DNA from: Georgenia ruanii
GTDB lineage: Bacteria > Actinomycetota > Actinomycetes > Actinomycetales > Actinomycetaceae
Direction of reading: 5' to 3'
Length of the DNA stretch: 64,000 nt
Assembly: GCF_009193175.1 (NCBI RefSeq)
Contig: NZ_VUKE01000003.1
Location: 186,001 to 250,000, forward strand
The notes beneath the pieces were generated by a model, which was given only the letters and a program-made list of their open reading frames with translations, ran no database searches and had not been told where the DNA came from. The position numbers and the translations under genes are program-made. This document shows, in pieces, positions 49,152 through 53,013 of this stretch (the first letter of the stretch is position 1; every line of letters starts with the position of its first letter).

Positions 49152-49294
49152 GGGCGTGGCATGTTGTGGCCATGGCATTTACATGCCCGCCCGCAGGCTG
49201 GTATTAGGTCCACGCGTCTCGTTAAGTTCGACATGCCGCAAGGAACACCGGCCCGCAACCGCGGGCGGAGGCAGTCGAGCGAGAGGGGCAGGCC

Positions 49295-50536
49295 ATGGGT
49301 GACGCGTCGGTGCTGCTCCGGTTCGAGAGGCGTCACGCCGACTCTGCCGTCCGCACGACTGCCGCCACCGCTGCGACGGCCTCGGAGAGCCGGACGGGGC
49401 AGCTGATCGATCTGGTCAGCCGCCGCGGTGGCGTCATGGAGGCCTCGCTCGACGCCGAGACCTACCCCCTCCTGCGCGACCACCTCGTGCACAGCATCCT
49501 TGCGACGGCGACGCCCGAGCGGGCGGAGCGACTCTTCCCCGGCGACCCGCAGCAGCTCCTGCGACCCTTCGGCAGCGTGAGCCTCGGCTCCGGCGCCGCG
49601 GGGGTCCTGGGGGTGCTCGCGACCGTCGGGACCAAGGTTCCCACCGAGCTCGTCGACTGGTTGGAGGGGGCGGTTCCCGGGATGGAGGGCCCGGGACCGG
49701 GGCTTGTCGACGGGCTCGGTGGGATCGCGCTGGCGCTCGACCGGCTCGGTCGCCACGAGGCGGCCGGGAGGATCTGGCACGAGGTGGAGCGGGCGCCGCT
49801 GGACCGGCTGGGCACCGCGCTGGCCGACGGCCTGCCCGGGCTGGGCCTGGCCCTGCTCGAGCGCGCACCGTTCAGCGACGGCGAGGCGCTGTGCGACCGG
49901 ATCTTCCTCATCGCCGAGGAGCTCGTCCGCCGCCTCGAGGACGGCGCTCACGACCTGCGCCGCCCCGGCCTGCTGCATGGCGGGGCGGGTGCCGCGTTGT
50001 TCCTGCTGCACGTCTACGAGATGACGGCGGACCGCCGGATGCTCGCGCAGGCCGAGCGGGCACTGCGGCACGATCTCGCCTTCCTCGGCTGGGCCGACCT
50101 CGCCGCCGAGGGGGCGCCGGAGCTGTGGCGCACCCGCCCGCTGCTCGGCAGCGGAAGCGCGGGCGTGGCCATGGTGCTGCACGAGGCCCTGAACCACCTC
50201 GACACCCCGTGGATGCTCCAGGCCCGGGACGCCATCGCCGAGGCCTGCGAGCGGCGGGTTGGCTCGCACGCCGGGCTGCTGCACGGCTGGGCGGGCACGC
50301 TCGTCGCGCTGCACTACCTGCGCAGCCGGCCCTGGGACCCGCCGGCCGACCGGCACGCCGTCGTCCGGCCGCACCTCGAGCGGCTGGCCCACCCGGCGGC
50401 CCGCGCACGGATCCCATTCGTCGGGCTCGACGCCTCTCGCTCCTCCGCCGACCTGGGCACCGGGGCGGCCGGTGTGCTGCTCGCGCTCGAGCACCTGCTG
50501 GGGGAGGGGGAGCGTCGTCTTCCCCTCTTCTGGTGA
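49295..50536 (+). CDS. Stand-alone LanC-like domain protein (homologous to the C-terminus of class III/IV LanKC)
   Basis: 413 residues. From residue 65 on it follows LanKC cyclase domains: LATATPERAERLFPGDPQQL, GSVSLGSGAAGVLGVL, GLVDGLGGIALALDRLG, PGLLHGGAGAALFLLHVYE, GSGSAGVAMVLHEAL, HAGLLHGWAGTLVALHYLR and DLGTGAAGVLLALEHLL, the alpha/alpha-barrel repeats. The kinase and lyase parts of LanKC are absent, and the zinc cysteines of classical LanC are not seen. Without a dehydratase nearby it cannot make a lanthipeptide alone. It starts the accessory locus and is 44 bp before the methyltransferase. The start ATG 49295 has GAGAGGGG upstream. Confidence 0.8.
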   Translation: MGDASVLLRFERRHADSAVRTTAATAATASESRTGQLIDLVSRRGGVMEASLDAETYPLLRDHLVHSILATATPERAERLFPGDPQQLLRPFGSVSLGSGAAGVLGVLATVGTKVPTELVDWLEGAVPGMEGPGPGLVDGLGGIALALDRLGRHEAAGRIWHEVERAPLDRLGTALADGLPGLGLALLERAPFSDGEALCDRIFLIAEELVRRLEDGAHDLRRPGLLHGGAGAALFLLHVYEMTADRRMLAQAERALRHDLAFLGWADLAAEGAPELWRTRPLLGSGSAGVAMVLHEALNHLDTPWMLQARDAIAEACERRVGSHAGLLHGWAGTLVALHYLRSRPWDPPADRHAVVRPHLERLAHPAARARIPFVGLDASRSSADLGTGAAGVLLALEHLLGEGERRLPLFW

Positions 50537-50580
50537 CCATCCAGGCCCTTCGGCCCGATGAGACGAGGGGAGGGGGCACG

Positions 50581-51477
50581 ATGAACGCACCGCAGGCCGC
50601 CGCGCTGGCGACGAGCCGGCTCCGGGGCGCGATGACGGCGCCGCGGGCCACGACCGCGGCGACCCGCGGCATCCCGGGACACGCGGGCCAGCTCGTCGCC
50701 TCCCTCGGTCTCCGCGTCGAGCTCCACCCCGCCTGCGACCCGGTCGGTTCGGCGATGCTCGCCGACGTCGCCGACGCCGAGATGCAGGAGGTCCGGGCGG
50801 TGCTGCGGCTGGTCCTCGGCGTCGACGGCCCGGTGCTGGACCTCGCGGCCGGCGTGGGACGCCTCACCGTCCCGCTGCTGGCGCTGCGCAAGCAGGTCAC
50901 CGCGCTCGAGCTCTCGGGCGACGTCATCGCCCGGCTCGTGCACCGGCTGCAGCAGGCTCCCGCCGCCCTGCGGGCGCGTTGCAGCACGGTGCAGGCCGAC
51001 ATGGCCGATTTCCGCATCGACCGCGCCTTCGCCGCGGTGGTGCTCGGCGGGGCCTCGGTCAGCCTGCTCGACGGCGCCGATCGCATGGGCCTGTACCGGT
51101 CGGTGCGCCGGCACCTGATGCCCGGCGGGCGCTTCCTCGTGAGCACGGTCGACCACGGCGCGGCGGTGCTGCCGCCCGAGGTCGGCGGCGAGGTGCAGGC
51201 CCCGAGCGGGCGCTCGTACCGGGTGTACGAGTACTGGGAGCGGGGCGCACCCACGTGGACGCTCACCGCTCTGTCGAAGGATTCCGGTCACGGTCCCGTC
51301 ACCGTGTGCACAACGACCCAGCGCGTGCTCGGTGCGGCACAGCTGCAGGTCGAGCTCGAGCGCGCGGGCTTCTCCGTGATCTCGCGCACGCAGGTGACCG
51401 AGCCCGGGCAGCGGCACCCGGTCGTGCTGATCGAGGCTGCGCTGCCCGACGCGGTGACGGGGCCGGCTCTTTACTGA
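50581..51477 (+). CDS. SAM-dependent class I methyltransferase
   Basis: 298 residues. Motif I VLDLAAGVGRLTVPLL (85-100), the acidic LELSG, VQADMADFRIDRAFAAVV (motif post-II/IV) and the Ser/Thr-rich post-motif GGRFLVSTVDHG support the class I fold. The N-terminus (about 50 residues) is unusual and basic. Position after the LanC-like gene, with a GGGAGGGGG site before ATG 50581, suggests one operon. Peptide-modifying (RiPP-type) methyltransferases are a possible family, including daptide-type, but I cannot confirm this without a profile search. Confidence 0.75.
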   Translation: MNAPQAAALATSRLRGAMTAPRATTAATRGIPGHAGQLVASLGLRVELHPACDPVGSAMLADVADAEMQEVRAVLRLVLGVDGPVLDLAAGVGRLTVPLLALRKQVTALELSGDVIARLVHRLQQAPAALRARCSTVQADMADFRIDRAFAAVVLGGASVSLLDGADRMGLYRSVRRHLMPGGRFLVSTVDHGAAVLPPEVGGEVQAPSGRSYRVYEYWERGAPTWTLTALSKDSGHGPVTVCTTTQRVLGAAQLQVELERAGFSVISRTQVTEPGQRHPVVLIEAALPDAVTGPALY

Positions 51478-51487
51478 GCCGTTGTGG

Positions 51488-51513
51488 CAGCGGTGCGCTC
51501 GATGCGCCCGCTG
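51488..51513. terminator. Terminator hairpin between convergent methyltransferase and regulator
   Basis: Stem 51488-51498 with 51504-51513, one bulged base, 5-nt loop, in the 48-bp gap. Confidence 0.5.
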
Positions 51514-51525
51514 TCCCGAGCGCGC

Positions 51526-52497
51526 TTACAGCCAGCCCCGCTGGGCGGCCTTCGCCCCCAGGGCGAATCGGCTGCTCGATTCCATCCGGTTGCTCAGGAT
51601 GTTGATCATGCGCCGGACGGTGCGGATCGAGATGCCGAGCTGACGGGCGATCGCCTCATCCTTGAAACCCTTGGCGAGAAGCTGGAGGAGCTCACGCTCC
51701 TCGGGCTTGAGGGCGTCATCGGCCTCAGTAGGAGCCAGATCGGTGCCTGACTCCCAGAGAAGTTCGTAAAGGCCACGAAGGGCGGCGACGACCCCAGGCG
51801 TATTTATGATCACCGCGCCGCGCGTGAAGTCGTCGGGGTCAAACATGACGACTGCCACTTCGCGATCGTAGATAAGGATGCGATTGGGGACACTGATCGC
51901 CGCGCGAGCGGAGCCCCCGTGGTCGCGTAGCCACGCGGCATACTCGACAACTGCGCTCTCATGACGGGCGGCGGCCGGGTAGATGGAGCGAATGGCGACC
52001 CCGCGGGCGAGGTCTCGGGCCTCGTCGCTCTTCGCCTGGTCAAGTTGGTGAGCGGTCGGGGTGGCAGTGATGATCGAATCGAGCGACGTCGTGAGATTCT
52101 GACCGAGTTCGAGCAGGCGAGCGACGATCTCGTCGGTACCCGTCAAGTGCTCAACTTCGCCGCGACGTCGGGTTGCCGAGCGCTGGTACTCGTCAACAAG
52201 CACCGCTGCCTCGGCCCGGATGTGGGTGAGTTGTTCCTGGGCGCGGTAAAGCTTCGTCTCTTCTTCGCTCAACAACCGCTCGAATGCGACCTGAGGAGAC
52301 TCAGTGCGAACACCCGAAGGATCAGTGTGTGAACGGCGCAGGAGACCCTTCTGCTCCAGGAGGTCGAGTACCTCATGCAGATGGTCGTGCTCGAATCGCG
52401 TGCGCTCTACAAGCTGCTCATGGGTCATCGCGGGTGCGTTGAGAAGCGCGCGGTAAACCGATATGGCGTCGCCATCGAGTCCCAACGCTTCGAACAT
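51526..52497 (-). CDS. TrmB-like N-terminal / LuxR-type C-terminal transcriptional regulator
   Basis: 323 residues from ATG 52497 (GGGGAG upstream); an ATG at 52575 would add 26 residues. The N-terminus FEALGLDGDAISVYRALL with HDHLHEVLDLLEQKGLL is a TrmB-type winged helix. A coiled-coil stretch (SEEETKLYRAQEQLTHIRAE) leads to a central ligand-type region, and the C-terminus LKPEERELLQLLAKGFKDEA with IRTVRRMINILSNRM is a LuxR-type HTH. Codons and base composition are visibly less GC-rich than the neighbours. It is divergent from the 47-aa peptide gene and probably controls it. Confidence 0.82.
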   Translation of the reverse strand: MFEALGLDGDAISVYRALLNAPAMTHEQLVERTRFEHDHLHEVLDLLEQKGLLRRSHTDPSGVRTESPQVAFERLLSEEETKLYRAQEQLTHIRAEAAVLVDEYQRSATRRRGEVEHLTGTDEIVARLLELGQNLTTSLDSIITATPTAHQLDQAKSDEARDLARGVAIRSIYPAAARHESAVVEYAAWLRDHGGSARAAISVPNRILIYDREVAVVMFDPDDFTRGAVIINTPGVVAALRGLYELLWESGTDLAPTEADDALKPEERELLQLLAKGFKDEAIARQLGISIRTVRRMINILSNRMESSSRFALGAKAAQRGWL

Positions 52498-52602
52498 CAC
52501 GCTCCCCAGTTGTCGTCGTGCGCCCGATCGTATGCCGGGATGGGTGATCTCGGACAGCGGCAGGCTCTTAACCATGTCGGGTGCCGACGTGAGGCAACTT
52601 CA

Positions 52603-52641
52603 TGCCATGGCAGGCATTGCCCGTTGACCGATCCTGCCATG
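52603..52641. promoter_or_regulatory. Candidate operator repeats and -35 of the peptide gene
   Basis: TGCCATGGCA (perfect 10-bp palindrome, 52603-52612) and a TGCCATG half-site at 52635-52641 are 32 bp apart, about three helical turns. TTGACC (52624-52629) between them is a good -35 for the + strand; no good -10 follows at 16-18 bp, which suggests activator dependence. Confidence 0.5.
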
Positions 52642-52710
52642 CGCGTCCGAAAGCGTCGATCATCAACAACGAGGCGCACCGGCCTCGATGACTACAGGAG
52701 TGTGAGATCA

Positions 52711-52854
52711 ATGAAGAAGCTCGGAGCGAGCATCCTCGTTGCCGTCGGTCTGGTCGCCGCGGTGGCGGCCCCGTCCTCGGCAGCCAGCATCGACAAGACG
52801 ACCAGCGTGTCCACCATGTGCGCCTACTGCTGGCCCACGCCGGGCACGCGCTGA
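52711..52854 (+). CDS. Secreted 47-aa peptide precursor with CxxC core
   Basis: Sec-type signal peptide: two lysines, then a hydrophobic run (LGASILVAVGLVAAVAAP), and a cleavage site near SSAA|S (residues 22-26). The likely mature peptide is about 22 residues, rich in Ser/Thr before a CAYC motif (C37, C40) and ending WPTPGTR. AGGAG lies 11 nt before ATG 52711, a regulator is divergent, and a strong hairpin follows, so the gene looks real. It may be a pheromone-like signal, a redox peptide or a modified peptide; no homologue is recognised. Confidence 0.7.
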   Translation: MKKLGASILVAVGLVAAVAAPSSAASIDKTTSVSTMCAYCWPTPGTR

Positions 52855-52887
52855 CACGTGCAGAGCGGTCGATGACCGCGACATCGG

Positions 52888-52920
52888 TGCCCCGGAGCAG
52901 AACCTGCGTGCTCCGGGGCA
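52888..52920 (+). terminator. Terminator of the peptide gene
   Basis: Perfect 12-bp stem TGCCCCGGAGCA / TGCTCCGGGGCA (52888-52899, 52909-52920), 9-nt loop, 33 bp after the peptide stop. It makes a compact monocistronic unit. Confidence 0.8.
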
Positions 52921-53013
52921 TCGTCATGTCTGGCGCGCACCACCCACGCGCTTGGACCGTGAAGCCGACAGCGCCATGCGAGATTGCCGACGCACGCTGC
53001 GAGGATGGCAGGC

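Follow-up and report, generated by a model that had tools for sequence, protein, structure and literature searches.

A secreted peptide gene paired with a TrmB-LuxR-type regulator gene in Georgenia: a candidate peptide signalling locus with LanC-like proteins in its putative regulon

In the RRNPP pairs of Bacillota (PMC10075063), a propeptide gene adjoins the gene for a cytosolic receptor. Clostridium acetobutylicum offers a precedent of another kind: CA_C0082, a LanM-like effector of Agr quorum sensing, is expressed under Agr control, is dispensable for making the signal and is thought to derive from a biosynthetic enzyme, according to the sections of PMC10301443 on this protein. Archaeal TrmB and TrmBL2 (PDB 3qph, 2f5t, 5bpd and 5bqt) combine an N-terminal winged helix-turn-helix (wHTH), a coiled coil and an effector domain of phospholipase D (PLD)-like fold. 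Here we describe a locus that shares features with each of these, in a stretch of 64,000 nucleotides from Georgenia ruanii (NZ_VUKE01000003.1, positions 186,001 to 250,000; hereafter the window), which lies within contig C30 of a 4.42 Mb genome. It holds genes for a LanC-like protein, a methyltransferase, a divergently transcribed regulator and a secreted peptide of 47 amino acids (aa). Taken together, the evidence leans towards a peptide signalling system, composed of an autoinducing peptide, a cytosolic receptor-regulator and LanC-like proteins as members of its regulon. The features are as follows.

49155..49188, + strand: operator-like motif upstream of LanC, its centre 122 bp before the LanC ATG (palindrome 49158-49187)
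49295..50536, + strand: LanC-domain open reading frame (ORF) of 413 aa that corresponds to the C-terminal cyclase region of class III LanKC
50581..51477, + strand: daptide-type (DapM-like) S-adenosylmethionine methyltransferase of 298 aa
51526..52497, - strand: regulator with TrmB wHTH, coiled coil, PLD-like effector domain and LuxR HTH; candidate receptor
52590..52623, + strand: operator-like motif between the regulator and peptide genes, its centre 103 bp before the peptide ATG
52667..52690, + strand: short inverted repeat within the peptide gene's leader
52711..52854, + strand: secreted 47-aa peptide, with a Sec-type signal followed by about SIDKTTSVSTMCAYCWPTPGTR
52885..52923, + strand: inverted repeat after the peptide gene, with 15-nt arms

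The likeness to the RRNPP pairs lies in the adjacent secreted propeptide, its secretion being judged from sequence. Unlike those receptors, the regulator has no tetratricopeptide repeat (TPR) domain among 25 of the 29 Pfam families listed for it, and a TrmB wHTH, a PLD-like effector and a LuxR HTH stand in its place. An acyl-homoserine lactone (AHL) autoinducer-binding domain was likewise absent from those 25 families. The regulator differs from TrmB and TrmBL2 by an extra C-terminal HTH of the LuxR/NarL type and by its partner, which here is the gene of a secreted peptide. Like CA_C0082, which lacks zinc ligands in the description given in PMC10301443, the Georgenia LanC is a shortened synthetase-like protein, here beside a candidate peptide signalling locus. 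There, the protein is LanM-derived and works with Agr, as far as that account goes, whereas here a class III-type LanC stands with a TrmB-LuxR regulator of the one-component kind, and as many as three copies of LanC were seen in a single genome. Agr genes were not noticed at the locus, where no search was aimed at them.

The peptide and the regulator form a recurrent pair. Among 119 genomes searched, close full-length regulators (55-79% identity) were found in all eight same-genus genomes returned and in one genome of another genus (G015), and in 9/9 of them the regulator adjoins a divergent secreted peptide of 41-52 aa with CxxCWP near its end. The window's own peptide ends in CAYCWPTPGTR; its signal peptide and cleavage site were judged by eye and by a home-made rule. 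LanC lies beside the regulator in all nine of these genomes and the methyltransferase in six. Two more distant genomes (G052 and G022) have the core CxxCWE. An earlier note on this stretch had inferred a link between the peptide and the enzymes or the divergent regulator, and had suggested looking for conserved peptide genes beside regulator homologues; the nine close relatives bear the pairing out, and looser pairs occur farther out.

How far the pairing extends was gauged by a wider scan, in which named genomes were searched with an alignment of the regulator. This gave 80 loci with flanks of up to 6 kb, including four Georgenia genomes already counted (L058-L061) and two loci that probably coincide with G052 and G022 (L071 and L074). 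Under a strict filter, a divergent small secreted ORF was present in 18 of the first 28 loci (L058-L085), 4 of the 18 being those same Georgenia. A relaxed filter, tried on nine loci, added candidates in L064 and L082; among the remaining 52 loci, the strict filter gave a peptide in L091 and L128, which are contigs of the same species. Both filters are home-made rules. Three further loci (L092, L096 and L106) pass the strict filter, and their ORFs were rejected as precursors by appearance. In a tree of 61 regulators, a peptide accompanied 25 of the 40 rows in the window's clade and none of the 21 rows outside it. The peptide label changed 6 times along the tree versus a mean of 19.5 after shuffling, a clustering helped by near-copies among the rows. 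The peptide-bearing rows belong to Allobogoriellaceae, Streptomycetaceae, Actinospicaceae, Micromonosporaceae, Intrasporangiaceae and unnamed Actinomycetales.

The cores vary with lineage: CxxCWP in Georgenia, CxxCWE in metagenome-assembled genomes (MAGs), CIACWVTGH in Tetrasphaera, PWIWPD in Micromonosporaceae, and DGIIWD, GVIGWD, SISWD or NDLSWG in Streptomyces. Overall, tryptophan (Trp) stands near the C-terminus of every core found except that of Actinospica (L083). Two Streptomyces precursors carry their core (GVIGWD, DGIIWD) in repeated form. Repeated cores also occur in some pheromone precursors. A peptide profile (A1) run on 347 genomes of the order returned mostly signal-peptide noise outside Georgenia (109/347 at E<=0.05) and was set aside as a source of leads only.

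Some of the flanks hold other small genes. Three Streptomyces loci have, downstream of the peptide gene, a similar gene of 88-103 aa without a Pfam match (L062:1498-1767, L063:5302-5568 and L078:5240-5551), next to which, in L063, comes an FG-GAP-repeat protein. Another family of the same order has 46-51-aa secreted peptides ending in WWPN or WWPH (L218:6143 in G336, L219:6074 in G164 and L220:6247 in G244). Their signal sequences are very similar, and they are divergent from a protein of 342-347 aa that in L218 shows sub-threshold TPR matches. These pairs are possibly an RRNPP-like pair in Actinobacteria.

Comparing upstream regions revealed a feature absent from the earlier note. A palindrome, TTCC-TGCCATGGCA-GGAA, is common to the regions upstream of the peptide gene and of LanC in 10/10 genomes (the window's included), centred on GCCATGGC or a near variant (CACTTCCTGCCATGGCAGGAAGTG in G001). 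A common operator for signal gene and target genes is one of the functional criteria of peptide quorum sensing, and this motif, shared by all ten genomes, is a candidate for it. Its distance from the start codon is 101-110 bp for the peptide gene and 110-133 bp for LanC. From its centre to conserved -10-like blocks downstream, read by eye, there are about 48 bp at the peptide gene and 25 bp at LanC, a spacing that would suit an activator. The exact pattern TGCCATGGCA-N4-9-TGCCA occurs 0 times in the window's own genome (G000), 0 times in G002 and 3 times in G007. In the peptide leaders of Streptomyces and the MAGs, conserved blocks were seen and no motif in common with Georgenia was established.

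Further sites were sought with a sequence-only profile (R1), built from 18 of the 20 locus sites, with both sites of G006, a genome that nearly duplicates G005, excluded. It was searched in the ten genomes with 150 candidates scored per genome. In the own genome it gave E values of 1.2e-4 for the LanC site and 2.9e-5 for the peptide site; both are training sites, so that these values prove nothing new. Outside the locus, 25 distinct sites had E<=0.08, and all were read. Six precede LanC paralogues (85-160 bp before the start; one each in G000, G002, G004, G005, G006 and G007), ten precede secreted proteins, one precedes a pilin-like gene named by eye, and eight have no assigned target. By the same home-made rule for secreted targets, 259 of 4000 random positions (6.5%) in loci of these genomes, drawn irrespective of promoters, preceded a secreted start, versus 10/25 motif sites. 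Seven of the ten secreted targets are hydrolases by Pfam: S8 subtilases (L172, L176, L182 and L263), GH35 (L180), M14 (L185) and M28 (L187); the other three (L173, L177 and L178) have no Pfam match. Full orthologues of the L172 subtilase were found in G005, G006, G007, G008 and G015, and 4/5 of them have a motif site; the M14 target protein was found in G002 and G003 only. Weaker R1 sites, 18 of 22 of which were read, also precede subtilases (L267 and L271), a BNR-repeat protein (L278) and the M14 orthologue (L277).

The second LanC of the window's genome (L006:7884-9194, G000:C22) has Tad pilus-like genes, named by eye, as its neighbours, and in G007 the motif precedes both a pilus-linked LanC and a pilin-like gene (L168:4576 and 5410). 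The third stand-alone LanC of the window's genome (L007:10112-11284, G000:C22) lacks such a motif over the 260 bp upstream of its chosen start.

The gene pairing, the shared motif, its further sites and the resemblance of the enzyme pair to LanKC-DapM, all as read from the DNA, are consistent with the following mechanism. The 47-aa precursor would leave the cell through Sec and be cut down to a short peptide that carries the CxxCWP core. After probable re-import, this peptide would act as ligand of the divergent TrmB-LuxR regulator, which would sense it through its PLD-like effector domain. That regulator would bind TTCC-TGCCATGGCA-GGAA and switch on the peptide gene, which would amount to autoinduction in a positive loop. 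It would activate the LanC(-methyltransferase) operon and the additional LanC paralogues as well, and in congeners also genes for proteases and other proteins that are secreted. The enzyme pair of LanC and methyltransferase, presumably derived from a daptide-type LanKC-DapM pair, may now serve in the response.

The architecture of the regulator suits such a role. Its TrmB and GerE/LuxR domains score above the Pfam cut-offs (PF01978, 27.4 bits vs 25.6). The AlphaFold2 model has a predicted local distance difference test score (pLDDT) of 80.6 and a predicted template modelling score (pTM) of 0.46, so that the placement of the domains is unsure. In Foldseek, TrmBL2 and TrmB were nearest to the model (5bpd, E 1.4e-10; 3qph, 1.3e-7), the middle domain resembled PLD-like folds and the C-terminal end resembled NarL/LuxR HTHs. 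The regulator gene (51526-52500) has 68% DNA identity to that of G002 (L039), while LanC and the methyltransferase have 92-93% and the gene beyond the peptide 84%; this sharp island of divergence suggests allele replacement. The effector domain is 60% identical between the window and G002, whose core is CFACWP, against 70-86% for the DNA-binding domains and 93% for LanC. It is 84% identical to that of G007, which has the window's core CAYCWP, and outside this domain the regulator resembles both to about the same degree (78% to G002, 76% to G007). This pattern is what receptor-signal matching would give, and we take it as a hint only. Co-evolution of effector domain and peptide, tried over nine genomes, was rejected as not significant.

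For LanC and the methyltransferase, the closest relatives are in biosynthetic clusters. The LanC protein matches Pfam LANC_like at 37.2 bits (gathering 23.2), and its AlphaFold2 model has a pTM of 0.78. Against the class III LanKC model, only positions 455-833 of 833 are matched, with 247.8 bits vs a cut-off of 575. The Georgenia protein shares with class III LanKC (PDB 8sao and 9wj0) the LanC domain and, by a 12-sequence alignment, the want of any invariant Cys or His, a trait it also has in common with CA_C0082 and its missing zinc ligands; it differs in standing alone at about 400 aa. A C-terminal FW is present in all 10 main-locus LanC copies; it was rejected as a mark of these proteins, since 3/6 operator-linked paralogues (L169, L175 and L183) are without it. 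The methyltransferase passes the NCBIfam daptide_MTase model at 245.4 bits (cut-off 175). It is present in 7/10 genomes, the window's included, and absent genome-wide from G001, G003 and G015, so that G015 has LanC without it.

Across 347 genomes of the order, with at most five candidates scored per genome, a LanC-profile match at E<=1e-15 was found in 14. The window's genome, the only Georgenia in this sample, has three matches, in frames of 436, 484 and 537 aa. Elsewhere the profile matched 15 places, 14 of them in frames of at least 847 aa and one, in G316, in a frame of 222 aa. Apart from the window's genome, the two with the best matches (G010 and G016) have a LanKC followed by a daptide methyltransferase. 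Neighbours in G016 pass the daptide dehydrogenase and aminotransferase models, those in G010 pass the daptide protease, precursor and LanKC models, and the daptide protease is common to both (61% identity); these surroundings are daptide clusters. The Georgenia order of LanC then methyltransferase matches LanKC then methyltransferase there, without the kinase and lyase parts. The likeness to daptide clusters, as far as PMC10036551 and PMC12338566 describe them, extends to the methyltransferase model and this gene order; unlike them, the Georgenia locus lacks the kinase/lyase part of LanKC, and its genomes lack a close relative of the daptide protease. With the HExxH protease of G010 as query, only partial matches of 29-32% identity were found in 4/9 Georgenia genomes; the remaining 5 and G015 gave no match. 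No daptide dehydrogenase, aminotransferase or precursor was recognised by eye around the regulator, no family search for them having been run in Georgenia. The simplest reading of the origin of LanC + METHYLTRANSFERASE would be reduction from a daptide-type LanKC-DapM pair; gain of an already reduced pair is possible. Gene pairs resembling ABC transporters, called by eye and by home-made rules, lie upstream of LanC in G007 (L038:10288-11840) and downstream of the peptide in G015 (L046:3956-5841).

The earlier note had placed four genes together, with hairpins and a regulator of different base composition. All four ORFs were recovered at their positions, and the inverted repeats at 52885-52923 and 52667-52690 and the palindrome at 49158-49187 account for the hairpins; the repeat at 52885-52923 is possibly the end of transcription of the peptide gene. 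The compositional difference holds in the window (third-position GC 0.73 for the regulator vs 0.92 for LanC), whereas the regulator reaches 0.83-0.91 in several congeners. The longest regulator ORF is 51526-52575 on the - strand (349 aa); because relatives begin at the residue aligned with its Met27, the gene is more likely 51526-52497. For each of the four genes, all computed pairs with the compared relatives had a pN/pS ratio below 1 (0.18-0.77). Genes in the flanks of the 80 regulator loci, the motif loci and the surroundings in G010 and G016 were called with a home-made GC-periodicity caller, which overlooked the methyltransferase in several loci and sometimes chose the wrong strand.

A number of results weigh against the signalling system. 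We infer both of its binding steps, of peptide to regulator and of regulator to motif. The bare 10-mer with one mismatch occurs 3 times in the window vs a shuffled mean of 1.67, and 26/100 shuffles reach 3. The eight off-locus sites without a target by the rule used, the limit on scored candidates and the random control open to positions outside promoters count in the same direction. So does L176, the G006 copy of L172, with which the close relatives G005 and G006 are counted twice. Secreted starts follow 5/18 weak sites vs 10/25 strong ones, so the separation is not sharp; the subtilase orthologue in G008 has no motif site, and the G003 site of the M14 orthologue is at background (E 0.95; consensus score 17). 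In the window's own genome, R1 found only three sites among the scored candidates (peptide, LanC and a LanC paralogue), and the S8 and M14 target proteins are absent. Over nine genomes, effector-domain and peptide-core divergence gave a partial r of 0.20, reached by 902/5000 permutations, and LanC divergence follows the peptide core better than the effector domain does. Finally, TrmB of Pyrococcus binds sugars, by the title of PDB 2f5t. This last point supports a serious rival, which we nonetheless consider unlikely: that the effector of this TrmB- and TrmBL2-like regulator binds a sugar or similar nutrient and controls scavenging hydrolases, with the small peptide as a regulated product (an inhibitor, a metal-binding or an antimicrobial peptide) and not a signal. 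The GH35 and peptidase targets and the BNR-repeat protein at a weak site suit this proposal; the peptide gene as recurrent divergent partner in several families, with lineage-specific and sometimes repeated cores, fits it poorly. The same Trp-containing, variable and sometimes repeated cores would be left unexplained by a cell-envelope or secretion-stress peptide and regulator that respond to an internal cue, without communication, through a motif serving secretion genes. Secreted proteins and a pilin-like gene do occur among the targets, and we give this last proposal very little credence.

The enzymes raise a different possibility, in which the CxxCW peptide is a substrate that LanC and the methyltransferase convert, by thioether formation or methylation, into a mature signal or antibiotic, as in a cluster for a ribosomally synthesised and post-translationally modified peptide (RiPP). 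Both enzymes resemble RiPP enzymes, adjoin the peptide and stand under the same motif; Ser/Thr precede the two Cys; and a zinc motif is not needed by class III cyclases according to the part of PMC10301443 that treats them. Nevertheless, LanC lacks the kinase and lyase domains that define class III, which agrees with the earlier note's assignment to no known lanthipeptide class, and no LanKC-sized frame appeared among the 5 candidates scored, of 71, in the own genome. Within the fetched flanks of the 80 regulator loci, beyond which the enzymes may lie elsewhere, LanC occurs in 4 and the methyltransferase in 3, all Georgenia; beyond Georgenia and G015, the pair had neither enzyme beside it in those flanks. 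Moreover, three of ten genomes keep the peptide without the methyltransferase, and the LanC paralogues with the same motif have no such peptide within 330 bp of it. Because the enzymes are rare at the pair, no LanKC frame or close protease relative was found and the methyltransferase is missing from 3/10 genomes, we lowered our estimate of a RiPP cluster and now regard it as improbable. These findings speak against the part of the earlier note in which the enzymes act on the peptide as their substrate. Its broader proposal, that regulator and enzymes act on or respond to the peptide, survives in the common motif and the pairing and loses the part in which the enzymes exist to modify it.

Among the matches listed by literature searches on such pairs in open-licence full texts, there was no report of a TrmB-LuxR/peptide pair. 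Beyond the signalling system at this locus, we regard as evenly poised the wider proposal that Actinobacteria hold an unrecognised class of quorum sensing, with Sec-exported, mostly Trp-containing peptides, TrmB/PLD-like/LuxR receptors, extracellular hydrolases as targets and, in Georgenia, LanC effectors taken over from a daptide-type pathway; the pairs seen here cover five named families. Bacillota are the best-known home of peptide quorum sensing with cytosolic receptors. If the proposal is true, Actinobacteria, Streptomyces included, would own a version with an unrelated receptor, and small testable peptides could be used to switch secreted enzymes. It would also be the second independent case, after Clostridium, of Lan-like proteins in signalling and not in biosynthesis.

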